A stretch of DNA of 64,000 nt, taken from positions 1,833,501-1,897,500 of the forward strand of contig BNHL01000001.1 of the NCBI GenBank assembly GCA_015472025.1, given 5' to 3'. Below the pieces are notes generated by a model. That model ran no database searches, was not told the DNA's origin, and saw nothing but the letters and a program-made list of their open reading frames with translations. How positions within the stretch are numbered: position 1 is the first letter of the stretch; every line of letters starts with the position of its first letter. Positions 1-61,876 of this stretch are shown here, in pieces. The position numbers were made by a program, and so were the translations under genes. The DNA comes from Cytophagales bacterium WSM2-2 (GTDB lineage Bacteria; Bacteroidota; Bacteroidia; Cytophagales; Cyclobacteriaceae).

Positions 1-225
1 TACTTCAACTGTATGAATTTTATTGTTGACCTTCAGTTGGAATGTTTTTGTTGCTTTATCCGCCTTCACAACTTCAGCACGATAACTTTTATTCTTATAC
101 AGAATGTGATAGTTGCCCTCCGATAGATTTGATAGATCCCATTGAAAGGGCTCCCCATTGATCGTGAATTGGCCATCATTTGATGTTACCTCGAAATTTT
201 TCCCGTTTACTTTGGATTGATACAT
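1..225 (-). CDS. Biotin carboxyl carrier subunit (acyl-CoA carboxylase), partial
   Basis: The first 75 codons are visible; the gene runs off the left edge. The product begins MYQSKVNGKNFEV and continues with a WDLSNLSEGNYHIL segment followed by a lysine-rich strand. This resembles the N-terminal part of the small biotin carrier proteins that pair with acetyl/propionyl-CoA carboxylase in Bacteroidota; there, the C-terminal biotinyl domain (EAMKM motif) lies further on and would be outside the window. The ATG at 225-223 is chosen because the reading frame is open from it to the edge and a promoter-like TACATTTG ends only 3 bases before it. The role in the carboxylase is inferred from N-terminal resemblance only. 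Confidence 0.7.
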   Translation of the reverse strand, partial: MYQSKVNGKNFEVTSNDGQFTINGEPFQWDLSNLSEGNYHILYKNKSYRAEVVKADKATKTFQLKVNNKIHTVEV

Positions 226-228
226 GCC

Positions 229-236
229 CAAATGTA
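229..236 (-). promoter_or_regulatory. -7 promoter element TACATTTG abutting the start codon
   Basis: On the minus strand TACATTTG matches the Bacteroidota -7 consensus TAnnTTTG and ends 3 bases before the ATG of the biotin carrier gene. Transcription would begin at or next to the start codon, so the mRNA would be leaderless. No clear -33 element is visible. Confidence 0.45.
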
Positions 237-300
237 AAATATTGAATTTAGAATACAGAATTTCAGAAACGCTGTACAATCAAAAATTCCACGACCGGGA

Positions 301-330
301 TTTCGTATTCGAAATTCTTGAATACATTTG
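301..330 (+). promoter_or_regulatory. Promoter (TTTC-N18-TACATTTG) of the thiamine riboswitch transcript
   Basis: A -33-like TTTC at 301-304 and a perfect -7 element TACATTTG at 323-330 are separated by 18 bases. The predicted start near 336 places the transcript start at the beginning of a small hairpin (TTCCGG/CCGGAA, 336-352), immediately upstream of the TPP aptamer. Confidence 0.6.
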
Positions 331-350
331 CACCGTTCCGGAAAATCCGG

Positions 351-425
351 AAAGGGGTGCCTAAAAAACAACGGGCTGAGATTATACCCATAGAACCTGA
401 TGCCGGTAATTCGGCCGAAGGGAGG
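351..425 (+). promoter_or_regulatory. TPP (thiamine pyrophosphate) riboswitch
   Basis: The conserved THI-box blocks are present in order: GGGGTGCC at 354-361, GGCTGAGATTATACCC at about 374-389, then CCTGATGCCGGTAATTCGGC and the closing GAAGGGA at about 417-423. These form the pyrimidine- and pyrophosphate-sensing helices of the TPP aptamer. A hairpin (TTCCGG/CCGGAA) stands in front, and a second one (TCCGAT/ATCGGA, 430-446) follows in the expression platform. There is no T-run after the second hairpin, so control is more likely through translation start than termination. The regulated gene is the TonB-dependent receptor beginning 78 bases downstream, which fits the known pattern of TPP-controlled thiamine receptors in Bacteroidota. 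Confidence 0.95.
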
Positions 426-502
426 CAAATCCGATGACAAATCGGAAAAAACTACGCATCACATTCCCCTGTGTGCTCTGCCAAGTTTAAAACAAAATAA
501 AA

Positions 503-2950
503 ATGTCAAAATTTCTAACAACTGTGCTGGGCTGCCTGCTCACGCTCCACACTTTTGCACAGTTCAAAATCACGGGCACGGTTCGTGATTCAAAAACCAA
601 TGAGCTTCTGGTTGGCGCATCTGTCCAACTCGAGAATGCGCGCGGAACACTCACAGATGACCAAGGCCGCTTTGAGCTTAAGAATGTTGCAGGCGGCAAG
701 CAAAATCTGCAGGTCAGGTTTCTCGGATATGCTGAAGAGAAAAGAGACCTTGACGTGAGCGGAAACTTGTCGATTGAGTTTGTAATGCAGCAAAGTTCAC
801 AACTTACCGATGAAGTGGTGGTGTATGCCACACGTGCTTCGGAGAACAGTCCGACTGCTTTTTCAAATGTCAGTCGAACGGTAATTCAGAAACAAAACTT
901 TGGACAAGATCTGCCCTTCATCCTCAACTGGACACCATCTTTGGTGACAACTTCAGATGCTGGTGCCGGAATAGGCTACACTGGCGTGCGCATCCGCGGA
1001 TCTGATGCAACAAGAATTAACGTAACAATCAACGGCATCGTACTCAATGATGCTGAAGAGCAAGGCACATTCTGGGTTGATATTCCAGACATTGCATCTT
1101 CAGCGCAGAATATTCAGATACAGCGTGGTGTTGGTACTTCTACAAATGGAGCAGGCGCATTTGGAGGTTCAATTAATTTGCAGACCAATACGCGGAAAGA
1201 CCAACCGTACGCAGACGTAATTAATTCATTTGGATCATTTGGAACACATCGCCACACAGTAGGCTTTGGAACGGGCTTGAAAAATAAATTCGCGTTCGAT
1301 GGTCGTATGTCATTGATCGGATCAGATGGCTATATCGATCGCGCCACTTCCGATCTGAAATCGTATTATTTGTCAGGAGGATATTATGGCGACAAAACAA
1401 TGATCAAAGCTATTGTCTTTGGAGGTAAGGAGATCACTTACCAATCGTGGTATGGTGTTCCGCAATCGAAATTGAACAATGACCCCGCTGCGATGCAAGC
1501 TACTGTTGACGATGAGGGTTGGAACGCGCAGCAAGCGCAAAACCTGTTCAATAGTGGTCGAACATTTAATGCTTACACTTATCCAAATCAAATCGACAAT
1601 TATACACAAGATCATTATCAACTTCATTTTTCACACCGGGCTAACAGTCATTTGACTGCAAATGCTGCATTGCATTACACGTATGGTCGTGGGTACTATG
1701 AGGAGTATAAGTATAATAGAACATTGTCTGACTATGGAATTAAGGAGCCGATCATTGGAACGGACACCGTTCGTACCTCTGATCTTGTAAGGAGGCTCTG
1801 GCTTGATAATCGTTTTTACGGAATGACGTGGTCGTTGAACTATGAAAAAGAAAAATGGAGTTCTGTTTTGGGCGGAGCTTTCAATAAATACGATGGTGAT
1901 CATTATGGCGAAGTGATCTGGGCCCAGGTAGCAGCGACTATTCCTCCGTTCTATCGTTATTATTTTAACAACGGGAAAAAGAACGACTTCAATGTTTTCT
2001 GGAAAAACACCGCGCAACTCATGGATAAACTCCTGGGGTTTATTGACATGCAATACAGGCACGTGGACTACAAGGCCAACGGCATGGAAGACGGTAATTT
2101 GCCAATAGATTTTAGCGTCAATTATAATTTCTTTAATCCAAAAATTGGATTGACTTATTCGTTAACACAGGAACAACAGCTCTATGCATCTTACAGCGTT
2201 GGGAATCGTGAGCCCGTGCGGAGCGATTTTGTTCAGGCAGATCCGGGTCAACAACCACAACACGAAACGCTCTATGACACCGAGATAGGCTGGCGCATGA
2301 GAAAGAACAATGTGGCCATCAATATCAACGGCTACTACATGGACTACAAAAATCAATTGGTACTAACGGGTAAGAACAATAATGTCGGCTCACCCATCCG
2401 GCAGAATGTAAGTGACAGCTATCGTGCAGGGATTGAAATTGACGGAGGTATAAAATTCAATGAGCACTTCACTTGGAACGCCAATCTTACACTGAGCCAA
2501 AACAAGATCAGGAATTTCACGGAAGTGCTGTATGACTATGGTCAAAACTATGACGAGTACAACGAAGTAAACAGACAACATCAAAACACCGACATTTCCT
2601 TTTCGCCTAGCGTAATTGGTGGATCTGTCTTTCTTTATCATCCGGTTAGAAATGTTGAATTGGGGTTGCTCACAAAATATGTGGGACTCCAGTATCTCGA
2701 CAACACTTCAAACAAATCCAGATCGATAGATCCTTATTTCATCAATGATCTCAGGATGACCTATACCTGGAAACCGCAATGGATGCGCGAGTTTTCAATC
2801 AGCTTGCTACTGAATAACATTGGCGATATGAAGTACTCCAGTAATGGGTACACCTGGGGATACCTGGGTGGCGGAGCAGAGTCAAGGCAAAACTACTATT
2901 ACCCCCAAGCCGGCAGAAATTACCTTTTGATGGTGGCTATGCGGTTTTAG
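503..2950 (+). CDS. TonB-dependent outer-membrane receptor, TPP-riboswitch controlled (probable thiamine uptake)
   Basis: The 815-residue protein has a signal peptide (about 1-19, ending TFAQ), a carboxypeptidase-regulatory-like beta-sandwich at about 21-105 (GTVRDSKTNELLVGASV), a TonB plug at about 110-225 with GVRIRGSDATRINVTINGI, and a C-terminal 22-strand barrel ending in MRF, as usual for outer-membrane proteins. It would import a large or scarce substrate using TonB-ExbBD energy. Because a TPP riboswitch precedes it, thiamine, a thiamine precursor or a phosphorylated form is the likely substrate; that is inference from regulation, not from the protein. No thiamine biosynthesis gene lies nearby. 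The start ATG is preceded by an A-rich stretch and not by a Shine-Dalgarno sequence. Confidence 0.92.
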   Translation: MSKFLTTVLGCLLTLHTFAQFKITGTVRDSKTNELLVGASVQLENARGTLTDDQGRFELKNVAGGKQNLQVRFLGYAEEKRDLDVSGNLSIEFVMQQSSQLTDEVVVYATRASENSPTAFSNVSRTVIQKQNFGQDLPFILNWTPSLVTTSDAGAGIGYTGVRIRGSDATRINVTINGIVLNDAEEQGTFWVDIPDIASSAQNIQIQRGVGTSTNGAGAFGGSINLQTNTRKDQPYADVINSFGSFGTHRHTVGFGTGLKNKFAFDGRMSLIGSDGYIDRATSDLKSYYLSGGYYGDKTMIKAIVFGGKEITYQSWYGVPQSKLNNDPAAMQATVDDEGWNAQQAQNLFNSGRTFNAYTYPNQIDNYTQDHYQLHFSHRANSHLTANAALHYTYGRGYYEEYKYNRTLSDYGIKEPIIGTDTVRTSDLVRRLWLDNRFYGMTWSLNYEKEKWSSVLGGAFNKYDGDHYGEVIWAQVAATIPPFYRYYFNNGKKNDFNVFWKNTAQLMDKLLGFIDMQYRHVDYKANGMEDGNLPIDFSVNYNFFNPKIGLTYSLTQEQQLYASYSVGNREPVRSDFVQADPGQQPQHETLYDTEIGWRMRKNNVAININGYYMDYKNQLVLTGKNNNVGSPIRQNVSDSYRAGIEIDGGIKFNEHFTWNANLTLSQNKIRNFTEVLYDYGQNYDEYNEVNRQHQNTDISFSPSVIGGSVFLYHPVRNVELGLLTKYVGLQYLDNTSNKSRSIDPYFINDLRMTYTWKPQWMREFSISLLLNNIGDMKYSSNGYTWGYLGGGAESRQNYYYPQAGRNYLLMVAMRF

Positions 2951-3017
2951 TGGTGTGAATATTGAGTTTGAGCCACTGTGTGATTTGCACGGTGGCTCTA
3001 AACTCGCAACTCGTGGC

Positions 3018-3025
3018 TATCTTTG
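3018..3025 (+). promoter_or_regulatory. -7 element TATCTTTG, 4 bases before the ubiA-type start
   Basis: TATCTTTG is a perfect TAnnTTTG match; CCAT separates it from the ATG at 3030. This supports the ATG at 3030 over the upstream GTG at 2955 and predicts a leaderless transcript. Confidence 0.55.
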
Positions 3026-3029
3026 CCAT

Positions 3030-3875
3030 ATGTCCTCTCGACAATTCACGATCACCGGATTTATAAAACTCACACGATTTTGGAATCTCCTCATCATCGT
3101 ATTTAGTCAGTACTTCACCGCTGTTTTTTTGGTCAGTCCCGGAAAAGTCTGGGACATTAATCTTTTTTTTCTCTCTACAGCCACTGTTGTTATTGCAGCT
3201 GCAGGGTATATCATCAACGACTACTACGATGTCAAAATCGATTTGATCAACAAACCGGAACGTGTGGTTATCGGAAAAGATGTTGCGCGGAGGTATGCCA
3301 TTCTTTCGCATTCAGTTCTCTCTTTTATTGGAGTAGCCATCGGTTTTTGGCTTAACTGGAAAATTGGAGTGATCAACTTCCTTTCAGCGTTCTTACTCTG
3401 GTGGTACTCCAATAATTTGAAACGCCAGCCATTCGTTGGGAATTTTGTTGTTGCTTTCCTCACAGGGCTTTCCGTTTTTCTGATCAATGTGCTTTACGGA
3501 ACACATCAACCCCTGGTAACGATCTACGCCATTTTTGCCTTTGTCATGACACTTATTCGCGAGATTGTGAAGGACATGGAAGATTTGAAAGGCGATAATA
3601 CTTTTGGATGTAAAACACTGCCGATCATTTGGGGAACACGTAAAACTAAATTTCTGATTTACTTTCTGCTCACACTGCTTTTTGGAACAGTGATCTACAT
3701 TAACCAAGTGTACAAGCAATTGCCACAACTCTATTTCTTTATTTTTCTGTTCGTGCCGCTGGTATTCCTCCTGGCTCGTCTGGTCAGGGCCGATACCAAA
3801 AAAGATTTCTACTACTTAAGCCAATGGTGTAAAGTAATTATGCTTTTGGGTGTGATGAGCATGGTTTTCATTTAG
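3030..3875 (+). CDS. UbiA-family prenyltransferase (geranylgeranylglycerol-phosphate geranylgeranyltransferase-like)
   Basis: This 281-residue polytopic membrane protein carries both aspartate-rich motifs of the UbiA superfamily: NDYYDVKIDLINKPERV (NDxxDxxxD, about residue 65) and KDMEDLKGD (about residue 180). These bind the Mg-diphosphate of the prenyl donor. About eight or nine hydrophobic helices are visible. Family members attach prenyl chains to aromatic rings or to glycerol phosphate; the exact acceptor cannot be read from sequence. A longer frame opens at GTG 2955, but the ATG at 3030 is preferred because the extension is not hydrophobic and contains the promoter-like TATCTTTG. The stop codon overlaps the promoter-like box of purN. 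Confidence 0.85.
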   Translation: MSSRQFTITGFIKLTRFWNLLIIVFSQYFTAVFLVSPGKVWDINLFFLSTATVVIAAAGYIINDYYDVKIDLINKPERVVIGKDVARRYAILSHSVLSFIGVAIGFWLNWKIGVINFLSAFLLWWYSNNLKRQPFVGNFVVAFLTGLSVFLINVLYGTHQPLVTIYAIFAFVMTLIREIVKDMEDLKGDNTFGCKTLPIIWGTRKTKFLIYFLLTLLFGTVIYINQVYKQLPQLYFFIFLFVPLVFLLARLVRADTKKDFYYLSQWCKVIMLLGVMSMVFI

Positions 3876-3880
3876 TTTTG
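3873..3880 (+). promoter_or_regulatory. -7 element TAGTTTTG overlapping the upstream stop codon
   Basis: TAGTTTTG matches TAnnTTTG exactly. Its first three bases are the TAG stop of the prenyltransferase gene and it ends 6 bases before the purN ATG at 3887. It could give purN its own very short-leader transcript inside the operon. Confidence 0.4.
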
Positions 3881-3886
3881 CGGGAG

Positions 3887-4459
3887 ATGAAAAAAATCCG
3901 GTTCGCCATTTTTGCTTCAGGCAACGGTTCTAATGCCGAAGCGATTATGAAGTATTTCCAGAACCATCCAAAAATCGAAGTGGCGGCTCTGCTCTGCAAT
4001 AACCCGGGTGCATTTGTAATAGAAAGAGCTCAAAAATTTCACATTCCGATCCGGGTGTTTGAAAAAAGTCAGTTCCAGGATAGCGATGAGGTAATACACT
4101 GGCTTTCTGAAAACAGGATCAGTCACATTGTACTTGCCGGATTTTTGCTACTTATTCAGCAAAAACTTGTTGATGCATTTCCCGATAGGATAATCAATAT
4201 TCATCCATCACTCTTACCAAAGTTTGGCGGTAGGGGTATGTATGGAATGAATGTGCACAAGGCTGTGGCGGCATCATCTGAGAAAGAAACCGGAATTACG
4301 ATTCATCGGGTAAATGCACATTATGATGAAGGGGAAATTATTGCACAATTCAAGTGCGAGATCTCACCTGGAGAAAGCGCAGAATCGATAGCTAATAAAG
4401 TACAGAAACTTGAGCATGAACATTATCCCGGGATTATAGAAACCTGGGTTTTTGGCTAA
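3887..4459 (+). CDS. purN: Phosphoribosylglycinamide formyltransferase (GART)
   Basis: The 190-residue protein transfers a formyl group from 10-formyl-tetrahydrofolate to glycinamide ribonucleotide, the third step of purine synthesis. Visible family marks are the N-terminal FASGNGSNAEAI phosphate loop, INIHPSLLPKFGG with the catalytic Asn and His, and VNAHYDEGEII with the catalytic Asp. Length fits the PurN family. The frame opens at TTG 3878, but the ATG at 3887 (MKKIRFAIFASG) puts the first beta strand at the usual distance. It follows the prenyltransferase gene by 11 bases. Its stop overlaps the stop of the convergent thioesterase gene by 4 bases. Confidence 0.95.
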   Translation: MKKIRFAIFASGNGSNAEAIMKYFQNHPKIEVAALLCNNPGAFVIERAQKFHIPIRVFEKSQFQDSDEVIHWLSENRISHIVLAGFLLLIQQKLVDAFPDRIINIHPSLLPKFGGRGMYGMNVHKAVAASSEKETGITIHRVNAHYDEGEIIAQFKCEISPGESAESIANKVQKLEHEHYPGIIETWVFG

Positions 4460-4905
4460 TTACTTTTCTTCTCAATCCACTCGAAATTTTCCGTCTTGGG
4501 AAAGCTATCGAATATTTTTTGAATGGATTCATCGGGAATAGCCAGCTTTCTCTTCATCATATCTATCCATGCACCATCCAGATTAATAACAGCGGCAATT
4601 GTTTTGTCTTCTTTGTAGAGATTATGACGAATACTCCATCGAGAAAAATCACGGGTAGACTTCAGCACTTGCATATCAATGGTGATTTTGTCCTCAAAAA
4701 TAATCTCGCGCTTAAATAATGCTTCCTCTCTGAAAAGTATAGGTCCGATGTGAAGCTCTTCCAACCTTGCCGTGGTAAGTCCATGCTGAGTGAAACAGGA
4801 AATGCGGGTTAGCGCACCGTAGTCATAATAAGCGGAATGACGAAGGTGTCGGTTTTGATCAATGTCCGACCAGCGGATTTGGATGGGAACTATAAAATTT
4901 TCCAT
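4456..4905 (-). CDS. Hotdog-fold acyl-CoA thioesterase (4-hydroxybenzoyl-CoA thioesterase family)
   Basis: The 149-residue protein has the hotdog-fold start VPIQIRWSDIDQNRHLRHSA, where the Asp and the following His/Arg-rich turn correspond to the substrate-binding region of the 4HBT family. Members cleave acyl-CoA thioesters; the acyl group here is unknown. It is the last gene of a leftward operon: its ATG lies one base after the recO stop, which implies translational coupling. Its own stop overlaps the purN stop on the other strand by 4 bases. Confidence 0.8.
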   Translation of the reverse strand: MENFIVPIQIRWSDIDQNRHLRHSAYYDYGALTRISCFTQHGLTTARLEELHIGPILFREEALFKREIIFEDKITIDMQVLKSTRDFSRWSIRHNLYKEDKTIAAVINLDGAWIDMMKRKLAIPDESIQKIFDSFPKTENFEWIEKKSN

Positions 4906-4906
4906 A

Positions 4907-5575
4907 CTACTGTATTATTTCCCGGATGACGCTCAAAGATTTCAGCTCCCCAAAATTTTCCGAATGTACGGTGTAAAAACGGAGAAGCAAATCAAGAATG
5001 TTTTTGCGCTGCATATGGTTCATGGCAATCGCGTCAGTGTAATTAGCTGTGAGTAATTTGGAAAGAATTTTCTCTTCGTCTTCGCTCGCCATCCAGCCAC
5101 CGGAAACTTCAGTTGATACGGAGGGAAGAAAACCCAAGTGGCGACTAAGGCGAAGCAAAAAGATCAAATGAAAATTCTCCACGTTTGACTGCTGCAAATC
5201 AAGACTAATGAAAGATTGAATTAAAAACTCGCAGAGCTCCTGGGCGTGAGTTTCTTCTTTCACAGTTCGGTTTACGACCTCATTCAAGAATAAAGCAATA
5301 GTGGTTTTCCGGAAATCGGTTGCAACGCTTTGATAGGGATGGACGCACTTCACATCCTTGATGCGCATAATGGACGCATTCTCTTTGTGATAGACAACAA
5401 GATCCAGAAGAGTAAGCGGCTGGTAAAGTGCCAGGTTTGTTCTCTTGGAACGTCCGCGAACTCCATTCACAATGTAAGACTGGAGCCCAAAAGCACTGGT
5501 GAAAATATTTACGATGATCGAGGTCTCCCCATAATTTGTCAAGCGGAAAACGATGCCCTGCGTTTTATGAAGCAT
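4907..5575 (-). CDS. recO: DNA repair and recombination protein RecO
   Basis: RecO loads RecA with RecR onto SSB-coated single-stranded DNA during gap repair. The 222-residue product begins MLHKTQGIVFRLTNYGETS, the conserved N-terminal OB-fold of RecO, and continues with the helical C-terminal domain (LFLNEVVNRTV, FHLIFLLRLSRHLGFLP). The C-terminal zinc-finger cysteines found in some RecO proteins are absent. It lies 2 bases after the S41 protease gene and one base before the thioesterase gene, so the three are very likely one transcript. Confidence 0.92.
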   Translation of the reverse strand: MLHKTQGIVFRLTNYGETSIIVNIFTSAFGLQSYIVNGVRGRSKRTNLALYQPLTLLDLVVYHKENASIMRIKDVKCVHPYQSVATDFRKTTIALFLNEVVNRTVKEETHAQELCEFLIQSFISLDLQQSNVENFHLIFLLRLSRHLGFLPSVSTEVSGGWMASEDEEKILSKLLTANYTDAIAMNHMQRKNILDLLLRFYTVHSENFGELKSLSVIREIIQ

Positions 5576-5577: not shown

Positions 5578-7203
5578 TTAAAGTTTCCTTCGATCAAGCT
5601 CTGGTATACGGTCGAACATTTTTATCGCTTGCTGAAGTACTTCGTTACTTTCATTGAAGACCGGGTAGAAGCTGGGATTCCCCCAGACCCTGCGGGCAAT
5701 TTCTGCCTTCAGGTAAACCTGAAAAACACTTTTGTTACGCGCCAGATCTGCATGATTAGGTTTCACTTTTTCTCTTTGTCCCATGGCAACGAGTTGTGAA
5801 AGCATCGTATCATCCACGACAAATTTTTCCTTGTAGGTTTCGAACGTCATTTTTTCAAGACGGGCTTTATTCGCCTCCGCATAGTTGAAAGCAAATTCAC
5901 GAATCGAATTCACTGCAAAAAGTTCATTAAAGTATTTGCTGGAATGAGCTGTATCAAGCGGAACAAAATAATCAGGCATGATACCCCCACCGCCATAAAC
6001 TGTACGACCATTGAGCGTGTGATACTTCAATGAGTCATTGAAATGAATGCTGTCTGCGTGGAAGAATTCCCCGTGCTTGTATCGCTTAACAATGTCTTTA
6101 TCGTAAGCATCGAGGTCTTCATATGGTTTCTGAATAGAGCGACCGCTTGGTGTATAGTAACGCGAAATTGTGAGACGAACTTCCGATCCGTCATTCAAAT
6201 CAAATGGCCTTTGTACCAAGCCCTTGCCATAAGACCTGCGACCAACGACCAGGGCGCGATCATTGTCCTGTAGAGCGCCACTTACAATTTCTGCAGCCGA
6301 AGCACTGCCTTCATTGACTAGAACGATCAAATCTCCTTTTTCAAAATCCCCTTTGTCTGTAGCCATTGCGTTTTCATTATAGCGTGACTCCTGACCTTGA
6401 GTAAAAACAATTTTCTCGCCTTTCGTTAAGAACTCATCAGCAACATCAATAGCCTGATCCATGTAACCACCCGGATTCCCTTGGAGATCAAGGATCAATT
6501 TCTTCATCCCATCATTCTTCAAACGGTCAAGTGCTTGCTTGAATTCGTTATAGGTAGTTTGCGAGAAGCGGCTGATTTTAATGTAGCCGATCTCTTTGTC
6601 AACCATGTAAGAAGCATCAACCGAAGTTTGAGGGATTTTATCGCGCACGATGTTAAATGCGAGCGGTGTTTTTGAGTTTTTGCGTACCACTTCAATTTTC
6701 ACCTCTGTGCCTTTGGGGCCTTTGAGATATTTTTGAACATCAAGATTAGTGAGTTTGATATTTGCGATCACCTTGCCATCTACTTTAACGATCTTGTCAC
6801 CGGGACGTAATCCTACAGACTCAGACGGCCCTCCACCCAATGCCGCTACAACTACCAGTGTATCGTGAAAAATATTGAACTCAATTCCAATGCCCTCAAA
6901 ATTTCCTTTCAAATCTTCGTTGGCTTCGATCTTGTCACGGGCGGCTATATAAGCTGAGTGTGGATCAAGCTTTCCTAGTATGTGTGAGATGGCATCCTCA
7001 ACCACCGCATCTGTCTTGCCCTTGTCAACATATTCATTTTGAACCAGGGATAATACCTCACGCAGTTTCTCGATTTCAGAATTGTCAGTTTGGCGCCTGG
7101 GTTTTGAATTGATGCTTGCCCCGATAAGCAGACCAGCGGCCAGCCCAATGCACAAAATCAACGGAAGACTGATCTGGAATTTCGTGTTTTTTTGCTCGTT
7201 CAT
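5578..7203 (-). CDS. Carboxy-terminal processing peptidase, S41 family (CtpA/Prc)
   Basis: The 541-residue envelope protease has an N-terminal membrane anchor or signal segment (about 12-30, LPLILCIGLAAGLLIGA), a PDZ domain at about 95-170 (GIEFNIFHDTLVVV and GLRPGDKIVKVDG) and an S41 catalytic domain. The catalytic Ser lies in NEGSASAAEIV (S302 by position) and the Lys 25 residues later in GRRSYGKG (K327). Such proteases trim the C termini of periplasmic proteins. It heads the leftward S41-recO-thioesterase operon, with a TAACTTTG promoter element 44 bases upstream of the ATG. Confidence 0.93.
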   Translation of the reverse strand: MNEQKNTKFQISLPLILCIGLAAGLLIGASINSKPRRQTDNSEIEKLREVLSLVQNEYVDKGKTDAVVEDAISHILGKLDPHSAYIAARDKIEANEDLKGNFEGIGIEFNIFHDTLVVVAALGGGPSESVGLRPGDKIVKVDGKVIANIKLTNLDVQKYLKGPKGTEVKIEVVRKNSKTPLAFNIVRDKIPQTSVDASYMVDKEIGYIKISRFSQTTYNEFKQALDRLKNDGMKKLILDLQGNPGGYMDQAIDVADEFLTKGEKIVFTQGQESRYNENAMATDKGDFEKGDLIVLVNEGSASAAEIVSGALQDNDRALVVGRRSYGKGLVQRPFDLNDGSEVRLTISRYYTPSGRSIQKPYEDLDAYDKDIVKRYKHGEFFHADSIHFNDSLKYHTLNGRTVYGGGGIMPDYFVPLDTAHSSKYFNELFAVNSIREFAFNYAEANKARLEKMTFETYKEKFVVDDTMLSQLVAMGQREKVKPNHADLARNKSVFQVYLKAEIARRVWGNPSFYPVFNESNEVLQQAIKMFDRIPELDRRKL

Positions 7204-7312: not shown

Positions 7313-7320
7313 TAGTTTTG
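7313..7320 (+). promoter_or_regulatory. -7 element TAGTTTTG, 4 bases before the start at 7325
   Basis: TAGTTTTG is a perfect TAnnTTTG match separated from the ATG by AAAT. The predicted transcript start falls on the start codon (leaderless). Confidence 0.55.
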
Positions 7321-17730: not shown

Positions 17731-17738
17731 CAAAGATA
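17731..17738 (-). promoter_or_regulatory. -7 element TATCTTTG, 4 bases before the rbfA start
   Basis: On the minus strand TATCTTTG matches TAnnTTTG exactly; CACC separates it from the rbfA ATG. The element is identical to the one before the prenyltransferase gene at 3030, with the same spacing. A leaderless rbfA mRNA is predicted. Confidence 0.55.
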
Positions 17739-24834: not shown

Positions 24835-24842
24835 TACCTTCG
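24835..24842 (+). promoter_or_regulatory. -7-like element TACCTTCG, 5 bases before the polA start
   Basis: TACCTTCG differs from TAnnTTTG at one position; CTCTT separates it from the polA ATG at 24848. No clear -33 element is visible. Confidence 0.35.
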
Positions 24843-31772: not shown

Positions 31773-31780
31773 TAACTTTC
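31773..31780 (+). promoter_or_regulatory. -7 element TAACTTTC, 4 bases before a GTG start
   Basis: TAACTTTC matches 7 of 8 positions of TAnnTTTG; AGTT separates it from the GTG at 31785. This spacing equals that of four other starts in the window. Confidence 0.45.
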
Positions 31781-31784: not shown

Positions 31785-32429
31785 GTGAAATCAATCAAAC
31801 TGAAAGTCTCGAAAACGATTGGTTCGGTCTCTGCCGAACTGATTGCTCCAAAAAAACTCGAAGCCATTATGACTATGGCTCACGGTGCAGGGGCGGGGAT
31901 GAATCATCCCTTCATGGTGTCACTTGCCAAGGAACTGGCTGAGCTCGGCATTGCCACGCTCCGGTTCAACTTTGCATACATGGAGCAAAAGAAAGGAAGG
32001 CCGGATGCCCCGGCAGTTGCACACCAGGCGATAGAAGCAGCTGTCAACAAGGCGAACGAATTGTTTCCCAAGATTCCGTTATTCCTTTCGGGAAAATCCT
32101 TTGGTGGGAGAATGTCGTCACAGTATTTATCGATTCACAAACCGGAAGTGGCAAAAGGCATAGCGTTCTTTGGCTTTCCATTGCACGCACCTGGTAAGCC
32201 TGGAATAGAACGCGGAGAGCACTTGAAAGAAGTACAAGTTCCGTTGCTTTTCCTGCAAGGCTCACGCGATGAATTTGCCGAATGGAGCTTGATTGAAAAA
32301 GTGACAAAAGATTTACCACTTGCTACTCTGGTACGGTTGGAAGGTGCCAATCATTCATTCAAAGCAGGAAAGCAGAATTTGATTCCTGTGCTGGCGAATG
32401 AAGTAGCAAAATGGATAAAGCAAAAGTAA
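31785..32429 (+). CDS. Alpha/beta hydrolase (KANL3/Tex30-like)
   Basis: The 214-residue protein has the nucleophile elbow GKSFGGRMSS (GxSxGG), an oxyanion segment MAHGAGAGMNHPF, an acidic residue in LQGSRDEFAE and a terminal His in EGANHSF, which complete the Ser-Asp-His triad. The AHGAGAG and RLEGANHSF signatures match the KANL3/Tex30 alpha/beta-hydrolase family of unknown substrate. GTG is used as start; the promoter-like box 4 bases before it supports this. The ion-channel-like gene follows 13 bases later. Confidence 0.88.
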   Translation: MKSIKLKVSKTIGSVSAELIAPKKLEAIMTMAHGAGAGMNHPFMVSLAKELAELGIATLRFNFAYMEQKKGRPDAPAVAHQAIEAAVNKANELFPKIPLFLSGKSFGGRMSSQYLSIHKPEVAKGIAFFGFPLHAPGKPGIERGEHLKEVQVPLLFLQGSRDEFAEWSLIEKVTKDLPLATLVRLEGANHSFKAGKQNLIPVLANEVAKWIKQK

Positions 32430-36988: not shown

Positions 36989-36996
36989 CAAAAATA
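36989..36996 (-). promoter_or_regulatory. -7 element TATTTTTG before the second uvrA
   Basis: On the minus strand TATTTTTG is a perfect TAnnTTTG match and ends 7 bases before the ATG at 36981, so at most a few leader bases are expected. Confidence 0.45.
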
Positions 36997-43649: not shown

Positions 43650-43826
43650 CTACTTCTTAGCCGCAACCTTCATGAGATCTTCAATGTCATGAAGTAATTT
43701 TTCTTTCTCCTTGATAGCAGGCGGAAGTTCTCCGCCACCGGAATTCAGAATGATGTTACGGAAAAGAGACACGTCATCCGACAATAATTTTGCCGTATGC
43801 TGGAGGATGTTTTTAACTTTTTTCAT
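43650..43826 (-). CDS. Uncharacterised small protein (58 aa)
   Basis: The product is short, helical and charged, ends in VAAKK, and has a central GGGELPPAI kink; it has no signal peptide. The ATG at 43826 is chosen because the upstream in-frame part is not protein-like. I do not recognise a family. The 160 bases upstream, shared with the divergent amidohydrolase gene, hold no clear promoter. Confidence 0.5.
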   Translation of the reverse strand: MKKVKNILQHTAKLLSDDVSLFRNIILNSGGGELPPAIKEKEKLLHDIEDLMKVAAKK

Positions 43827-51704: not shown

Positions 51705-51712
51705 GAAAAATA
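51705..51712 (-). promoter_or_regulatory. -7-like element TATTTTTC before the sensor kinase
   Basis: On the minus strand TATTTTTC matches 7 of 8 positions and ends 7 bases before the ATG. The arrangement CTATTTTT-C-CTCTTCC-ATG is nearly the same as before the second uvrA. Confidence 0.35.
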
Positions 51713-56349: not shown

Positions 56350-56363
56350 GTAGTAACCACTAC
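56350..56363. promoter_or_regulatory. Short palindrome GTAGT-N4-ACTAC before the 68-aa gene
   Basis: A perfect 5-base inverted repeat with a 4-base spacer ends 4 bases before the ATG at 56368; flanking TTT and AAA extend it. It could be an autoregulatory site. Confidence 0.3.
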
Positions 56364-56367
56364 GAAA

Positions 56368-56574
56368 ATGAAACATTCACCTAAACTGGCTATCCTCCAG
56401 AGTTTGGATTCAATGGACCAGGTGCAGATGGAAAATGTCCTTGCGTATATCAAGGGTGTCCTCCAACAACCTGTTCACGAGAATTACAAGAACTTTAAGA
56501 AGGAAGCCATGAAAGAAATCCGCCAGGCATTAAGGCAGAATCGTGGGTCGAAGAACCTGCAGATGATTGCCTGA
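56368..56574 (+). CDS. Uncharacterised small protein (68 aa), antitoxin-like helix
   Basis: The product KLAILQSLDSMDQVQMENVLAYIKGVL then a basic helix (KEAMKEIRQALRQNRG) recalls the N-terminal helix of short antitoxins, but no toxin gene is adjacent. Function is not recognised. It is preceded by a palindrome and followed by a hairpin with T-run (56597-56628). Confidence 0.6.
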   Translation: MKHSPKLAILQSLDSMDQVQMENVLAYIKGVLQQPVHENYKNFKKEAMKEIRQALRQNRGSKNLQMIA

Positions 56575-56596
56575 GTGTTAAGGCCAGATGAATGAA

Positions 56597-56628
56597 CAGG
56601 CGATTTCTCTTCGCCTGGAGAACTTTTT
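56597..56628 (+). terminator. Probable terminator after the 68-aa gene
   Basis: CAGGCGA (56597-56603) pairs with TCGCCTG (56611-56617) around a 7-base loop; GAGAAC then TTTTT follows. The 6-base gap before the T-run makes it weaker than the others. Confidence 0.5.
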
Positions 56629-56679
56629 ACCCCTAATTTTCAGATTTTAAGTGAAGGTTAAGCCTCCTTCACCAGTAAG

Positions 56680-58698
56680 TTAATTGTCTTTGTCCTTATC
56701 CTTGCCGTCTTTGAAGTACTTGTCTTCATCAAATTCATCGGACTTTTTCACTGTTGGACCAATTTCAAGAATTCTGAACTCAGTACGTCTGTTCCTGTCA
56801 CGGCCTTTGGGATTGTCTGTGCCATCCGGATTGGTGTTGCGTGCGATGGGCACTCGTTCTCCATATCCTTTAGCCACGAGTCGTTCTGGTGCAATTCCTT
56901 TACGGATTAGATAGTTGACTGTGCTTTCAGCCCTGCGTTGGGAAAGTTCGATGTTATAGTCATCTGAGGCCACACTGTCGGTGTGTGAGCCCATTTCAAT
57001 TTTCAATTCGGGATTGTCAGTCAGGAGTTCAGCCAATTTATCAAGTTCGTGAGCAGCATCGCGATTGATGTCGGCTTTATTATATTCAAAGTAAATGTTA
57101 TTAAGCCTGAAGGTGATTCCCTTGGCCTTCCGGTCCAGAACAAGGAGTGTATCCAAGGTAATGTTGGTGACTAATTCTTTTAGGGTCTCCAATGGTATAG
57201 ACTTTCCTTTCGTGGTGAAGGGTTGCCGCTTAATGATGTAGCCATCACGGTCACCCAGCAGGAAGTAATTTTCATTTTCATAGACACGGAACAAAAACTT
57301 ACCATCATTTCCAGTGGTAAATTCCTGCATCACATCACCGTCTTCTGCCAACAACGAAATCTTCGTATCAGGAAGAATTTCACGGGTGCTGTCTTTTTTC
57401 AAAGAATAAGTTATGCCCTGGAGGGTATAGTTAACTACACGCAGGTTCGGGTCATCATTTTTAAAGGTGTAGATATCGTCATCTCCCTTTCCGCCTTCGC
57501 GGTTGGAAGTGAAGAATCCGCGGTCAGCCTTGAACAAGAAAATACCAAAATCATCGCTGGAGGAATTCATCGTCGGACCAAGGTTCGTAATGATGTTCTT
57601 ACCATTGGCGCGATTAATAACATATAAGTCGAGCATGCCGTAGCCGGGATGACCGTCAGAAGAAAAATAAAGCTTACCGTTTTCGGCCACGTAGGGGAAC
57701 AACTCATCTCCGGCTGTGTTGATATCCGGCCCCAGGTTTTTAGCTTTCCCAAAACGTCCCCGGCTGTCCATTTGTGCAGAGTAAAGATCAAGTCCACCGT
57801 AACCGCCTTTCCGGTTAGAAGAAAAATAAAGCGTTCTTCCATCAGGGCTGAGCGCTGGAGTTGACTCCCAGTTGTCAGGTGTGTTGATGTTGATCGGAAC
57901 AGCAGGAGTCCAGTTTCCATTTCTAAAACGTGACAAGAAAAGATCAACATCCTTCGCTCCTTTTTTCTTACCGGTATTGCCCCGGGCAAAAATCATCAGC
58001 TTGCCATCGGCAGAAAAGGTGATTGAACCGGTATTGACGTCATTGACATTGATACCATCGGGCATTGCTTTCAATGTACTGACATCAACATTGGCACCGT
58101 TGGTGTCCACCTGGTATAAGTCTGTAAAAGGAGTACCGGATGCTTCATAAATTTTTGAATTGGCACGCGATGAAGCAAAGTATAATTCGCTGTTGGAGTA
58201 AGCAGGACCATAATCGGCAAATGCGGTATTGATTACATCCAGGTTTTTTACTTTATAGTAATCTTTTTTCTGCGCGATCTCGGTCAGATAGTCCAGACCC
58301 TGGATTTCTTTATTGACCCTGTCCTTCAGTTTTTCATTGTCAGTAGCGGAGGCGGCCAGTTCTTCCAGTGACTTTTTAGCTTCCTCGTACTTGCCATTGG
58401 CTTGCAGGGCTTTTGCATAATACAAACCCACGGAATCTTTCTTTGATCCGCGGCCTTTTGCTTTGGCGTAATAGGGTTCAGCTTCCTTGATGCGGTTGGA
58501 GAGCCTGTATGACTCACCTACGTAATAATTTGCTTTCGGATTATTGGGCTGTTTGTTCAGCACACCCTTATAATAACTGATGGTCTTTTCATATTTCCCA
58601 TACCGGAATGCGTTTTGTGCTTTTTTCTCCGGGCTACAGGAGAAAAGCAGGGAAATGATTAAAAGCAGAAGAACTCCGCTGGACTTAGTGGATAGCAT
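56680..58698 (-). CDS. PorE-like type IX secretion lipoprotein (TPR, WD40/PD40, CRD, OmpA)
   Basis: The 672-residue lipoprotein (lipobox LLFSC, Cys at about residue 21) has TPR helices (about 22-135), five PD40/WD40-like repeats (about 160-420, with LSPDGRTLYFSSNRKGGYGGLDLY), a carboxypeptidase-regulatory-like domain (about 425-520) and an OmpA peptidoglycan-binding domain (about 545-655, EMGSHTDSVASDDYNIELSQRRAESTVNYL). This domain order matches PorE of Porphyromonas gingivalis, a T9SS part anchoring the PorK/N ring to peptidoglycan. Related non-T9SS proteins have the same layout, so the assignment is probable. Confidence 0.85.
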   Translation of the reverse strand: MLSTKSSGVLLLLIISLLFSCSPEKKAQNAFRYGKYEKTISYYKGVLNKQPNNPKANYYVGESYRLSNRIKEAEPYYAKAKGRGSKKDSVGLYYAKALQANGKYEEAKKSLEELAASATDNEKLKDRVNKEIQGLDYLTEIAQKKDYYKVKNLDVINTAFADYGPAYSNSELYFASSRANSKIYEASGTPFTDLYQVDTNGANVDVSTLKAMPDGINVNDVNTGSITFSADGKLMIFARGNTGKKKGAKDVDLFLSRFRNGNWTPAVPININTPDNWESTPALSPDGRTLYFSSNRKGGYGGLDLYSAQMDSRGRFGKAKNLGPDINTAGDELFPYVAENGKLYFSSDGHPGYGMLDLYVINRANGKNIITNLGPTMNSSSDDFGIFLFKADRGFFTSNREGGKGDDDIYTFKNDDPNLRVVNYTLQGITYSLKKDSTREILPDTKISLLAEDGDVMQEFTTGNDGKFLFRVYENENYFLLGDRDGYIIKRQPFTTKGKSIPLETLKELVTNITLDTLLVLDRKAKGITFRLNNIYFEYNKADINRDAAHELDKLAELLTDNPELKIEMGSHTDSVASDDYNIELSQRRAESTVNYLIRKGIAPERLVAKGYGERVPIARNTNPDGTDNPKGRDRNRRTEFRILEIGPTVKKSDEFDEDKYFKDGKDKDKDN

Positions 58699-58743
58699 AA
58701 AAAAACAACTTCACGTGAGAAGTAAAACTACAAAATAAAAACA

Positions 58744-59247
58744 CTAGAGTGATAACGCACTTTTAGGCAAATATTTTACTAGCCATGATTTTTCTGCAGA
58801 TGTTTTCCAGCTGCTTTCAAAGGCCGATTTATCGCTAACTAAGTTGTTGAACGTAGTGGATGAGCGGTTAAGGGTTTCGGTCTTGAAAAGTGTTTGTAGC
58901 TCTGGAAGTGAGTAAAGCCGAACCTCGTCCTCTATCAAAAAAGCCACTTTTGCACGGTTGAAGAAATCAATGTTCAGGTGTTGCCCTAGTTCCTTTAAGA
59001 CGCGTACGGATCCATCAATGGAACAACCAGATGCCCCGGCTGTATTTTCGTTTACTGAAAGAACGACAAATTGTTTGTGCTCAACGGCAAACGAAGTCTG
59101 AAGGGGGTTTCCGTGTGCTTCCCAACGAGAGCAGAAGCCTTTAAGGTTTTCTGAAATGATCTTTTCTTCCGCATCGGAAAAAGGACGGTCGGCCTGGTAA
59201 ATCCAGATTCGTGAGTCGGGTGGCAATTGACTAAATGGAATATGCAT
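58744..59247 (-). CDS. Conserved Bacteroidota protein of unknown function
   Basis: The 167-residue protein begins MHIPFSQLPPDSRIWIYQADRPFS and contains FVVLSVNENTAGASGCSIDGSV and SKRIMV-like strands. Similar proteins are often labelled as ABC transporter ATPase, but no Walker or signature motif is present, so that name is not supported. The ATG at 59247 is preferred to 59262. It lies 45 bases from the PorE-like gene start in the same direction but ends before it. Confidence 0.65.
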   Translation of the reverse strand: MHIPFSQLPPDSRIWIYQADRPFSDAEEKIISENLKGFCSRWEAHGNPLQTSFAVEHKQFVVLSVNENTAGASGCSIDGSVRVLKELGQHLNIDFFNRAKVAFLIEDEVRLYSLPELQTLFKTETLNRSSTTFNNLVSDKSAFESSWKTSAEKSWLVKYLPKSALSL

Positions 59248-59313
59248 CGTTACGATTATCAAACAATAAAACGAAGGAGCCCTAATTAAAATTCAAAAAG
59301 GGATAATGATTTT

Positions 59314-60090
59314 TTACAAGGACTCTGCAATCAGCTCAGCCAGGTCTTTCACTTTTACCTCATTTTCCTTCTCTTTGTTTTTCACCCCATCCGTCATCAT
59401 AGTCATACAGAACGGACATGCAACGGCAATGGTGGAGGCACCTGTAGCCAGAGCCTCTTCCGAACGCGAAACGTTGATGTCTTTTTTTCCTTTTTCAGGT
59501 TCTTTGAACATCTGGGCGCCACCTGCGCCACAGCACAAACCCGTGGTGCGGCATCGTTTCATTTCAACAAGGTCTGCATCCAGTGCCTGTAGCACTTCTC
59601 GTGGAGCTTCGTAAATACCATTGGCGCGGCCAAGGTAGCATGAGTCGTGATAGGTGATTTTTTTCCCTTTGAATGAACCGCCTCCGTTCAATTTTATTTT
59701 TCCCTCATTAATCAACTGCTGAAGAAAAGTAGAATGGTGAATCACCTCGTAATTGCCACCCAGTTCAGGGTATTCATTCTTTAATGTGTTGAAGCAATGC
59801 GGACAAGCCGTCACAATTTTTTTGATGCCGTAACCATTTAAAACCTGGATGTTATTCATGGCCTGCATTTGGAACAAAAATTCATTGCCAGCTCTGCGGG
59901 CAGGATCACCTGTGCAAGTCTCTTCTGTTCCGAGCACTGCAAATTTCGTTTGTGTTGCGTTCAGGATTTTTACGAATGCCTTAGTCACACGTTTGGCACG
60001 ATCGTCAAACGAACCGGCACATCCTACCCAAAACAAAACTTCCGGGCTTTCTCCCCTGGCTACTAAATCGGCTACGGTTGGTGCTGTCAT
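59314..60090 (-). CDS. Heterodisulfide-reductase-like CCG-domain protein (Fe-S oxidoreductase)
   Basis: The 258-residue protein carries two CCG-type cysteine clusters: FWVGCAGSFDDRAKR with CPHCFNTLKNEYPELGG, and DSCYLGRANG with CCGAGGAQMF and CPFCMTMMTDG. These bind a [4Fe-4S] cluster as in HdrB and LutA-like proteins. It likely takes electrons from the membrane Fe-S protein encoded at 60560-61864. The ATG at 60090 (MTAPTVADLVARGE) is used. A DUF1569 gene lies between the two. Confidence 0.88.
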   Translation of the reverse strand: MTAPTVADLVARGESPEVLFWVGCAGSFDDRAKRVTKAFVKILNATQTKFAVLGTEETCTGDPARRAGNEFLFQMQAMNNIQVLNGYGIKKIVTACPHCFNTLKNEYPELGGNYEVIHHSTFLQQLINEGKIKLNGGGSFKGKKITYHDSCYLGRANGIYEAPREVLQALDADLVEMKRCRTTGLCCGAGGAQMFKEPEKGKKDINVSRSEEALATGASTIAVACPFCMTMMTDGVKNKEKENEVKVKDLAELIAESL

Positions 60091-60101
60091 AATTTCTTTT
60101 T

Positions 60102-60551
60102 TTATCCTCCGAACTGGCGGAGGTGATGGTCCAGATGTTTGTACATACCTATTCCCCACTCACTGGGTTTCAGCAGTCCGAAGAACGGGTGCGGATGTGT
60201 GGTGGCATTCTTTTCTCCTCCTTCTGAAAACTTTTTTACCAATGAGAGTAGCCTGGATTTTTCGGTATTGAAATCACGTGATTCTACCACTTTGATTTCT
60301 TCACTGGTTGGACTGCTCTTGTCGAATGGTTCTTCATTGGTGTAGTGGCCCTTAAATAGAGGACCCAAAATCCGGCCGATAAAAACCCGCTTAGGCTTTG
60401 TAGTGCCCATTGCCATATCCAGTGCGTTACCGCAATGGGCAAGCATCTGCGACACGTCCATTTTTCCCCATTGTCTGGACGATTCGGGCGAGATTTTTTG
60501 AATGCGATCAATCATCGTAACGGACACATTGAAATCGAAAAGTGTTTTCAT
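60102..60551 (-). CDS. DinB-like DUF1569 protein
   Basis: The 149-residue helical protein has the DinB/YfiT-type pattern with His residues in MLAHCGNALDMAMG and LDHHLRQFGG, which usually bind a divalent metal. DUF1569 function is unknown. The gene lies 11 bases before the CCG-protein gene and 8 bases after the membrane Fe-S gene, so it is inside the electron-transfer operon. Confidence 0.8.
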   Translation of the reverse strand: MKTLFDFNVSVTMIDRIQKISPESSRQWGKMDVSQMLAHCGNALDMAMGTTKPKRVFIGRILGPLFKGHYTNEEPFDKSSPTSEEIKVVESRDFNTEKSRLLSLVKKFSEGGEKNATTHPHPFFGLLKPSEWGIGMYKHLDHHLRQFGG

Positions 60552-60559
60552 TTATCGAT

Positions 60560-61864
60560 TTAGTCTTTTGACCAGTTGAACCTGTCGCTGGGTGAGAATT
60601 TCCATGGGGCAAAGCTCGTTTCAATATTCTGGAACATGGAATTCCACGAAGCCGGGGAGCCACTCTCTTCCATGGCCACGTACCTGCGCAACTCCAAAAT
60701 AATTTCCAATGGGTTGATCATTACCGGGCAAGCTTCCACGCAGGCATTGCAACTGGTGCAGGCGTTGATTTCTTCTTTCGTGATGTAGTCGCCTAACAAA
60801 AATTTCCCGTCATTCAACCCCTGACCGCCCTTCTCGAGGCTCTTGCCAACATCTTCCATGCGATCGCGGGTATCCATCATGATCTTGCGTGGAGAAAGTT
60901 TTTTGCCAGTAAGGTTAGCCGGACATTCGCTTGTGCATCGGCCGCATTCTGTACATGAATAAGCCGCCATCAAATTGTTCCAACTAAGATCATTAATGTC
61001 CTTAGCGCCAAATCTTCCCGGTTCGGCAGGAGTAGTTGGGGCAGGAGCAAGACCTAACATCGATTTTACTTCGTTGGTCACCACAGGCATATTGTTGATG
61101 TGCCCTTTCGCACCCAGCTTGGCATAATACGTATTCGGAAAAGCCATGAAAATGTGTAGGTGTTTTGAATAGGTGATGTAGATCGTGAAACCAAGAATGC
61201 CGATGATGTGAAACCACCAGCAGAAACGCTCAAGGATGATAAGTGTGGAGGTACTCGTGTTTTGAAGTACCGGGATTATGTACGAACTGAAAAACAGACT
61301 TCCGGTGGCAACATAATGCTCGCTTCGCGTTTGCAAAATCTGGTCACTTGCATTCATGGTAAGAATAGCGAACATCAAAATGATCTCTGTACATAGAATA
61401 AGGTTTGCATCCAGTCTGGGCCAGGATGTCATTTCCGCTGACCAGAAGCGAGGTACTTTCAGGACATTCCGACGGATGAGAAAAGAAATGCAAGCAACGA
61501 GTACGGCAATGGCCAGAAACTCGAAAATATTCATCAGCACATTATAAAACCCACCGAGAAATGGAGCGAAAATCCGGTGTGTACCGGCAATGCCATCAAT
61601 AACAAATTCTAATACTTCCAGGTTGATTACCAGGAAGCCGATATAAATAAAAAAGTGAAGCACGGCCGGCAGAGGGCGCTTGAACATTTTCTTTTGCCCG
61701 AAGGCTACCAATAGCATATTGGAAAGGCGGTCATTTTTCCGATCGATGATCGAATTCTTTTTGCCAAGGAGGATGTTTGCCTTGATCCGTAATACACGTT
61801 TCCTGACAAAAAAGACTGCCGCCCCAAGTGTCAGGATGAAAAGGATTTGCTGAAGGATAGCCAT
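60560..61864 (-). CDS. Membrane Fe-S oxidoreductase (HdrC/NarI-like)
   Basis: The 434-residue protein has five or six transmembrane helices with His candidates for haem (LHFFIYIGFLVINLEVL, FHIIGILGFTIYI), then a C-terminal ferredoxin domain with two 4Fe-4S sites: CTECGRCTSECPANLTGKKL and CTSCNACVEACPVMINP. It links the membrane pool to the CCG protein. The ATG at 61864 (MAILQQILF) is preferred to 61885 because TATTTTTG ends 4 bases before it. Confidence 0.9.
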   Translation of the reverse strand: MAILQQILFILTLGAAVFFVRKRVLRIKANILLGKKNSIIDRKNDRLSNMLLVAFGQKKMFKRPLPAVLHFFIYIGFLVINLEVLEFVIDGIAGTHRIFAPFLGGFYNVLMNIFEFLAIAVLVACISFLIRRNVLKVPRFWSAEMTSWPRLDANLILCTEIILMFAILTMNASDQILQTRSEHYVATGSLFFSSYIIPVLQNTSTSTLIILERFCWWFHIIGILGFTIYITYSKHLHIFMAFPNTYYAKLGAKGHINNMPVVTNEVKSMLGLAPAPTTPAEPGRFGAKDINDLSWNNLMAAYSCTECGRCTSECPANLTGKKLSPRKIMMDTRDRMEDVGKSLEKGGQGLNDGKFLLGDYITKEEINACTSCNACVEACPVMINPLEIILELRRYVAMEESGSPASWNSMFQNIETSFAPWKFSPSDRFNWSKD

Positions 61865-61868
61865 GCTC

Positions 61869-61876
61869 CAAAAATA
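61869..61876 (-). promoter_or_regulatory. -7 element TATTTTTG, 4 bases before the Fe-S operon start
   Basis: On the minus strand TATTTTTG matches TAnnTTTG exactly and GAGC separates it from the ATG at 61864. It supports the shorter start and a leaderless transcript for the three-gene operon. Confidence 0.5.

Follow-up and report, generated by a model that had tools for sequence, protein, structure and literature searches.

Leaderless mRNAs in Bacteroidota and other bacteria

Bacteroidota make little use of Shine-Dalgarno (SD) sites. Leaderless mRNAs have already been reported in this phylum as a minor class of about 4-13%: they account for 5.5% of the mRNAs for 890 CDSs in F. psychrophilum (PMC9723704), about 3.7% of the 5' UTRs of B. 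thetaiotaomicron are under 10 nt (PMC7366714) and a leader of 10 nt or less is described for about 13% of the F. johnsoniae genes with a probable promoter (PMC6847099). According to the last study, transcription in F. johnsoniae starts 4-5 bases after the -7 box. In F. johnsoniae promoters G is almost absent at both N positions of this box. The FCB group is also described as having non-canonical A+T-rich ribosome binding sites (PMC9581028).

The genome studied here has in common with these three species the -7 box and a minority with no or a very short leader, predicted in our case, the published cases resting on RNA data and ours on motif spacing. The share of strict-box promoters at leaderless distance is about 17% (bootstrap 9-25%), which seems higher than in F. 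psychrophilum and B. thetaiotaomicron and near that of F. johnsoniae, although the measures differ. Several of the genes with a close box are housekeeping genes, whereas the examples given for B. thetaiotaomicron are transposases, sensor kinases and transporters (PMC7366714). The TA-led leaderless genes of Actinobacteria and Deinococcus-Thermus likewise have a -10 type box some 10-12 bases before the start, but that box is of the Pribnow type and the class comprises more than 20% of genes there (PMC3160421). The same survey, which takes the Pribnow box as reference, also reports that "atypical" genes are found in substantial numbers in Bacteroidetes. Non-SD initiation on leadered mRNAs with a Kozak-like context (PMC6847099) occurs in the same phylum, equally lacks SD sites and matches the larger class of our genome, with its box at 15-29 bases; the close-box class differs from it in having no room for a leader.

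Close boxes in the window

The window, that is, the whole stretch of 64,000 nt analysed, had been described as carrying TAnnTTTG boxes a few bases before several start codons, and direct reading of its sequence found every listed box at the claimed gap (the bases between box and start codon). Exact boxes at gap 4 precede ATG 3030 of a UbiA-type prenyltransferase gene (TATCTTTG, 3018..3025, + strand), ATG 7325 of a DUF1905/OmdA protein gene (TAGTTTTG, 7313..7320, +), ATG 17726 of rbfA (TATCTTTG, 17731..17738, -) and ATG 61864 of a Fe-S dicluster protein gene (TATTTTTG, 61869..61876, -). The gap-4 box before GTG 31785 of an alpha/beta hydrolase gene (TAACTTTC, 31773..31780, +) has one mismatch, as claimed; it is a weak member of uncertain start, ATG 31869 being preferred by our start rule. 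Further exact boxes lie at gap 3 before ATG 225 (TACATTTG, 229..236, -), whose protein is cut by the window edge and gave no family match, at gap 6 before ATG 3887 of purN (TAGTTTTG, 3873..3880, +) and at gap 7 before ATG 36981 of uvrA (TATTTTTG, 36989..36996, -). Boxes with one mismatch stand at gap 5 before ATG 24848 of polA (TACCTTCG, 24835..24842, +) and, again as a weak member, at gap 7 before ATG 51697 (TATTTTTC, 51705..51712, -), where a protein with regulator-propeller and histidine-kinase domains is encoded. The housekeeping genes rbfA, polA and uvrA are among the members, as had been proposed, at gaps 4, 5 (one mismatch) and 7, respectively.

Two looser matches at gap 4 had also been announced. 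That of prfA (15054) is present, but merely as CGTTTTTG, which makes it a weak member, and the acyl-CoA synthetase gene that was meant could not be located. A one-mismatch box at gap 4 does precede position 7203; we rejected this gene as the acyl-CoA synthetase and identified it as encoding a C-terminal processing protease.

Excess of close boxes over chance

Close boxes are more frequent in the window, with 5 in 54 called genes, than in the genome sample, with 23 in 1171 (Fisher p 0.006). As the window was picked for its boxes, the conclusion rests on outside data, namely 80 stretches from elsewhere in this genome (29% of it, 1171 called genes). Genes were called with a home-made caller, which missed or shortened some of them in one run, and those with fewer than 110 bases upstream within their own stretch were left out of the gap counts; as the null, the upstream regions were dinucleotide-shuffled 200 times. 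TAnnTTTG was found at gaps 3-7 in 23 of the 1171 genes, with a mean of 3.4 and a maximum of 9 in the shuffles, and gap 4 was the commonest of these gaps (8 of 23). In the whole genome, TANNTTTGNNNNATG occurs 99 times, whereas the reversed pattern is found 58 times and the gap-10 version 60 times; because this gap-4 excess is real but small, gene-anchored counts were adopted.

When an open frame of 60 codons was demanded, ATG at gap 4 was found 10 times in our genome (mean over gaps 8-13, 3.8), 28 times in the relatives (mean 9.2) and 12 times in genome G041 (mean 1.7). GTG and TTG showed no gap-4 peak with this filter in any of the three sets (2 gap-4 cases each in the 80 stretches). Without the filter, ATG at gap 4 rose just from 19.8 to 28 in the 80 stretches and GTG was slightly raised (14 against 10.8); the control triplet TAG rose equally (own genome 16 against 7.8, relatives 21 against 12.7).

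The -7 element TAnnTTTG of sigma-ABfr promoters is present at these starts. Seven of the 28 close boxes of our genome carry G at the third place (25%, against 13% of leadered boxes; 5% and 2%, respectively, in the relatives), and since such a G is almost absent from F. johnsoniae promoters some close boxes are probably chance or weak ones. A -33 element (TTTG/TTG) was searched upstream of the boxes and gave no clear peak, TTTG occurring in that region in 18% of close boxes, 16% of leadered and 7% of intragenic ones, with no preferred position. The flanks of close boxes are as A+T-rich as those of leadered promoters and richer than those of intragenic boxes, a contrast confounded by intergenic composition. 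Of the 23 genes with a close box in the 80 stretches, 20 were compared with Pfam, and 4 of these 20 matched no family.

Two spacing classes

Close boxes form a minority class beside the usual short-leader genes and are not the main mode. A larger class has its box at 15-29 bases (77 against 10.5 in shuffles, 1171 genes), and gaps 8-13 are at background, a dip that parts both classes and is also seen in G041. Gap 4 takes 11 of the 16 matches at gaps 3-7 in close relatives, uvrA being left out of their histogram, and 7 of 15 in G041. The dip is partly filled in the close relatives, with 12 matches at 8-13 against 16 at 3-7, and the uvrA box lies at gaps 8-9 in nine of them. More distant relatives show no sharp peak at gap 4 (3 matches at gap 3 and 3 at gap 4).

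Start codons and translation signals

All 28 close-box genes of our genome start with ATG, a codon that the start rule favours; AUG starts with little use of GUG or UUG, as expected of a leaderless class, are observed. An asnB-like gene has TATTTTTG-TTT-ATG directly before MCGI, and its catalytic Cys2 presumably fixes the position of the start.

The original prediction of no Shine-Dalgarno sequence was borne out. Among the 1171 genes, SD words at gaps 4-12 were not in excess (GGAG 14 against 27, AGGA 24 against 41) and GGAGG was not enriched (7 against 7), which gives no sign of SD-led initiation; this lack extends across the called genes and therefore does not single out the close-box class. 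No 16S gene, whose 3' end would show an anti-SD, was found in the genome by two 3'-end patterns and the Rfam SSU model, which was positive in 9 of 14 control genomes; the sole 3'-end pattern match had no Rfam match.

Recurrence in other genomes

Among 247 Bacteroidota genomes, gap-4 ATGs outnumber gap-10 ATGs in 60 of 61 genomes of the same class and in 132 of the remaining 186. The genome-wide excess at 3-7 bases that had been predicted was thus checked on these genomes and on the 29% sample, and was not refuted. Gap 4 exceeds the reversed pattern in 54 of the 61 class genomes; in the first 20 of 54 f17 genomes the sum for the reversed pattern is higher (267 against 170), and family f11 is one with a low signal.

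Orthologs were searched in 60 (or 39) genomes each and the best 30 loci were read (28 new ones for the order). A close box was found in 13 of the best 30 class loci for rbfA and in 9 of 30 for hisS, our own included, and in 27 of 79 relatives for uvrA, one of 80 loci being dropped for want of a start. Pooled, these three genes have a box at gaps 3-9 in 49 of 139 loci and at 10-16 in 3 of 139; the rbfA ortholog L155 has a GTG start. Close strict boxes were mostly absent elsewhere: 2 of the best 30 class loci for the Fe-S protein, own included, 1 of 30 for polA and 2 of 28 for the asnB-like gene, where two of the best 30 loci lacked an N-terminal match and were dropped. Wide conservation of these three as leaderless genes is unsupported. 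A gap-4 box is also present in the Fe-S protein orthologs L073, L074 and L209, and TACCTTCG is found again at gap 4-5 before polA in L212, L213 and L218, among the best 30 loci.

Interpretation and alternatives

We consider it probable, from the sequence evidence, that the close boxes are -7 elements placed directly on the start codon, giving an mRNA that begins at or approximately at the AUG. The genome-wide excess, the agreement of gap 4 with the F. johnsoniae box-to-start distance and the ortholog recurrence all support this leaderless reading. Against it weigh the unfiltered ATG and TAG counts, the lack of a sharp gap-4 peak in the more distant relatives, the reversed-pattern counts, the boxes with G at the third place, the seven genes in operon-like positions, the partly filled dip, the want of a clear -33 peak and the polA, Fe-S protein and asnB-like loci that mostly have no close strict box. 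From the observed box, spacing, excess and recurrence we infer the transcription start and the route of translation. The boxes would belong to ordinary promoters of the primary sigma factor (sigma-ABfr type), as -7 elements sitting on the start codon, at the fixed distance that is found here. RNA polymerase would start 4-5 bases past them, as in F. johnsoniae, and gap 4 would therefore set +1 on the A of ATG. The mRNA would begin at the AUG or within about 3 bases of it, with the leader absent, gaps 5-7 predicting a residual leader of 1-3 bases. Translation would then need no ribosome binding site, the 5'-terminal AUG being recognised directly as in leaderless mRNAs elsewhere. One sixth or so of the strict-box promoters would be leaderless, the larger class having leaders of about 11-25 bases.

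It is highly improbable that the close boxes are TAnnTTTG words that arise by chance in the A+T-rich DNA upstream of genes. The word is short, the genome-wide gap-4 excess amounts to only about 40 sites and the reversed pattern is commoner in 7 of the 61 class genomes, but shuffles of the same upstream regions reached 3.4 where 23 were observed, and the box recurs in rbfA, hisS and uvrA orthologs. Six control words at gaps 3-7 gave 0, 1, 0, 0, 5 and 1 against 16 for the box (611 genes), the one count of 5, for AT..TTTG, speaking for chance. Single genes may still be explained in this way. Very unlikely, too, is that translation really starts downstream and the box-adjacent ATG is a chance codon within an ordinary leader. 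In favour of this, starts were chosen by our own caller, some genes offer several possible starts in frame, and the ATG picked for rbfA lies 30 bases upstream of the one that homology supports. A chance ATG should, however, not favour gap 4, and leadered promoters have ATG there in 1 of 147 cases, which also leaves a bias in the initial sequence of promoters unsupported as the cause of the excess, although the unfiltered TAG count is raised there too. Moreover, the profiles TIGR00082 (RbfA), TIGR00593 (PolA) and TIGR00639 (PurN) match the proposed proteins from residues 3, 8 and 5 onwards, and the MCGI start of the asnB-like gene argues the same way.

A main promoter further upstream could also yield a leadered mRNA, the close box being a secondary promoter for a minor leaderless isoform. 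Seven of the 23 genes are in operon-like positions, close behind a same-strand neighbour, and rbfA and hisS orthologs often have their box at 17-30 instead, but 16 of the 23 are promoter-facing and we regard this explanation as rather unlikely.

Significance

What appears to be new with respect to the published Bacteroidota cases is the strength of the signal for the leaderless reading in its own class, together with the presence of two spacings and the recurrence at housekeeping genes. We can tentatively, and with considerable doubt, imagine two discrete 5' architectures, with leaders of 0-5 or about 11-25 bases and intermediates counter-selected, core genes including rbfA being kept leaderless, possibly with 70S-driven initiation and a feedback on rbfA. 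If this were true, orthologs of rbfA, hisS and uvrA would switch between architectures and seldom be intermediate, and the leaderless route would still function under impaired 30S assembly or impaired leadered initiation; as RbfA is a 30S maturation factor, such a route would give rbfA a feedback. Predictable from sequence, strong in one Bacteroidota class and recurrent at named housekeeping genes, such a leaderless class makes a direct test set, and the close boxes could aid gene finders in locating starts in a clade whose leadered sites are described as A+T-rich.

Promoter boxes in the window

The genome of Cytophagales bacterium WSM2-2 has 5.55 Mb, and the G+C content of the window is 43.6%. 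The original prediction placed a -7 promoter element, TAnnTTTG (the box), a few bases before several start codons, and direct reading of the window sequence found all the boxes with given coordinates at the distances claimed. An exact box ends 4 bases before the starts at 3030, 7325, 17726 and 61864, 3 bases before 225, 6 before 3887 and 7 before 36981, while the starts at 31785, 24848 and 51697 are preceded by a box with one mismatch. Genes with such a close box (gap of 3-7 bases) include rbfA, purN and uvrA. The motif TAATTTTG-N4-ATG at 43785-43799, which is absent from the frame-filtered window sites, is probably a chance occurrence. A TPP riboswitch aptamer, marginally above threshold, lies at 343-440, upstream of the gene at 503-2950.

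Two groups of boxes in the genome

The expected genome-wide excess of the box at 3-7 bases was also seen outside the window. Genes were called by a dicodon model, with start choice blind to the box, in 80 stretches of this genome, each 20 kb long, and 200 shuffles of the same upstream regions served as control. For 1171 genes, 198 TAnnTTTG words were found 0-100 bases from the start, and the counts at gaps 0 to 13 were 0, 1, 0, 3, 8, 5, 3, 4, 0, 0, 1, 1, 1 and 2. Gaps 3-7 held 23 boxes (shuffle mean 3.4, maximum 9), gaps 8-14 held 10, five of them at gap 14 (shuffles 4.8, maximum 12), and gaps 15-29 held 77 (shuffles 10.5, maximum 23); the boxes therefore fall into two groups separated by a dip. 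Of the strict-box promoters within 60 bases, 16.6% (bootstrap 9-25%) stand at gaps 3-7 once the background, estimated from gaps 60-99, is allowed for.

Sixteen of the 23 close-box genes are promoter-facing and seven closely follow a same-strand gene. They include guaA, hisS, priA, ribF, hemW, kdsB, ftsX, a FecCD permease gene and an asnB-like gene, whose protein begins with MCGI; residue 2, which we take to be the catalytic Cys, would fix this start. Some doubt comes from the G at the third box position in 7 of 28 close boxes of this genome, since it is rare in Flavobacterium johnsoniae promoters.

Predicted position of the transcription start

In F. johnsoniae the -7 element extends from T-12 to G-5, and in many promoters 4 or 5 bases separate it from the transcription start (PMC6847099); a gap of 4 would therefore place +1 at the A of the ATG. 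The predicted leader would be about 1-3 bases at gaps 5-7 and about 11-25 bases at gaps 15-29. Gap 4 is seen most often, and this preference is the strongest argument for leaderless mRNAs that the sequence provides. Among 147 leadered promoters an ATG occurs at gap 4 just once. After open-frame filtering, ATG was counted at gap 4 versus a mean over gaps 8-13 as 10 versus 3.8 in this genome, 28 versus 9.2 in relatives and 12 versus 1.7 in G041, a genome of family f9; the same filter gave 2, 4 and 0 GTG and 2, 1 and 0 TTG at gap 4, respectively. However, unfiltered ATG in the 80 stretches climbs only from 19.8 to 28 at gap 4, and the unfiltered control triplet TAG also rises there, from 7.8 to 16 in this genome and from 12.7 to 21 in relatives.

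Relatives and orthologs

The closest named match of UvrA is from a groundwater Bacteroidetes MAG (91%); many of the following matches carry the labels Cytophagales, Cyclobacteriaceae or Flammeovirgaceae, and Chryseolinea serpens stands at 82%, which suggests a member of Cytophagales. In the uvrA flanks, uvrA excluded, 748 genes of nearer relatives carried 16 boxes at gaps 3-7, 11 of them at gap 4, and 12 at gaps 8-13, while 314 genes of farther relatives carried 9 and 5, without a sharp gap-4 peak; some of these matches are one gene repeated across sister MAGs. The dip between the groups is partly filled in close relatives.

With ortholog starts set by homology, boxes at gaps 3-9, 10-16 and 17-30, the first being inflated because queries were picked for their own close or near-match box, numbered 13, 1 and 2 in 30 loci for rbfA and 9, 0 and 7 in 30 for hisS (both across the class, where every set has the own locus in it), 27, 2 and 2 in 79 for uvrA of named relatives, 3, 0 and 8 in 28 for rbfA across the order, 1, 0 and 1 in 30 for polA, 2, 0 and 4 in 30 for the Fe-S protein gene at 61864, and 2, 0 and 1 in 28 for the asnB-like gene. 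Gaps 10-16 were scarce (3 of 255 loci), and this scarcity had no part in query selection. The close box is recurrent at rbfA, hisS and uvrA and non-recurrent at polA, the Fe-S protein gene and the asnB-like gene. Gap 4 is also found at two Fe-S loci (L073, L074), and TACCTTCG is retained at gap 4-5 in three polA loci (L212, L213, L218). In several close relatives (uvrA loci within L071-L105) the box stays at gaps 6-9 despite a drifting protein N-terminus and spacer. In one rbfA ortholog (L155) an exact box ends 4 bases upstream of a GTG codon, which may serve as a GUG start without a leader.

Survey of the phylum

TANNTTTG-N4-ATG and TANNTTTG-N10-ATG were tallied in the same 247 Bacteroidota genomes. 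Within the organism's own class, 6412 gap-4 matches compare with 3772 at gap 10 (gap 4 higher in 60 of 61 genomes) and 4536 of the reversed pattern (54 of 61); the other genomes gave 6374 versus 5177 (higher in 132 of 186, lower in 41). Outside the class, family f24 (G144, G136, G113 and six others) showed 360 versus 79, a ratio of 4.6, with gap 4 higher in 9/9 genomes and 117 reversed matches. G041 (2.2 Mb; 128 versus 34) had the top gap-4 excess per Mb of the 247 genomes, 42.7, and 239 kb of it with 187 genes (L370-L381) held 15 boxes at gaps 3-7, one at 8-13 and thirty-five at 14-31. Family f23 gave 1593 versus 1312 and f11 131 versus 129, and in the first 20 of 54 genomes of f17 the reversed pattern (267) exceeds gap 4 (170).

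Comparison with other Bacteroidota

In F. psychrophilum 5.5% of mRNAs, for 890 CDSs, are reported to be leaderless (PMC9723704); about 3.7% of 5' UTRs are reported to be below 10 nt in Bacteroides thetaiotaomicron (PMC7366714), and 87% of leaders to be above 10 nt in F. johnsoniae (PMC6847099). An upstream bias in Bacteroidetes was already tied to leaderless mRNA and/or S1 (PMC5397173), and a Pribnow-reference survey describes many atypical Bacteroidetes genes (PMC3160421). Among the matches listed in the open-licence literature, no title or abstract opening dealt with Cytophagales genes that lack a leader or with a division of Bacteroidota leaders into two classes.

No 16S rRNA gene was found in the assembly by two 16S 3' end patterns and an Rfam SSU model, despite 99.65% completeness. 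By sequence, a modest group of leaderless or near-leaderless genes is probably real in this genome, which has no Shine-Dalgarno excess; the TAG and reversed-pattern controls slightly lower our confidence. The group is of a known kind, more sharply defined here.
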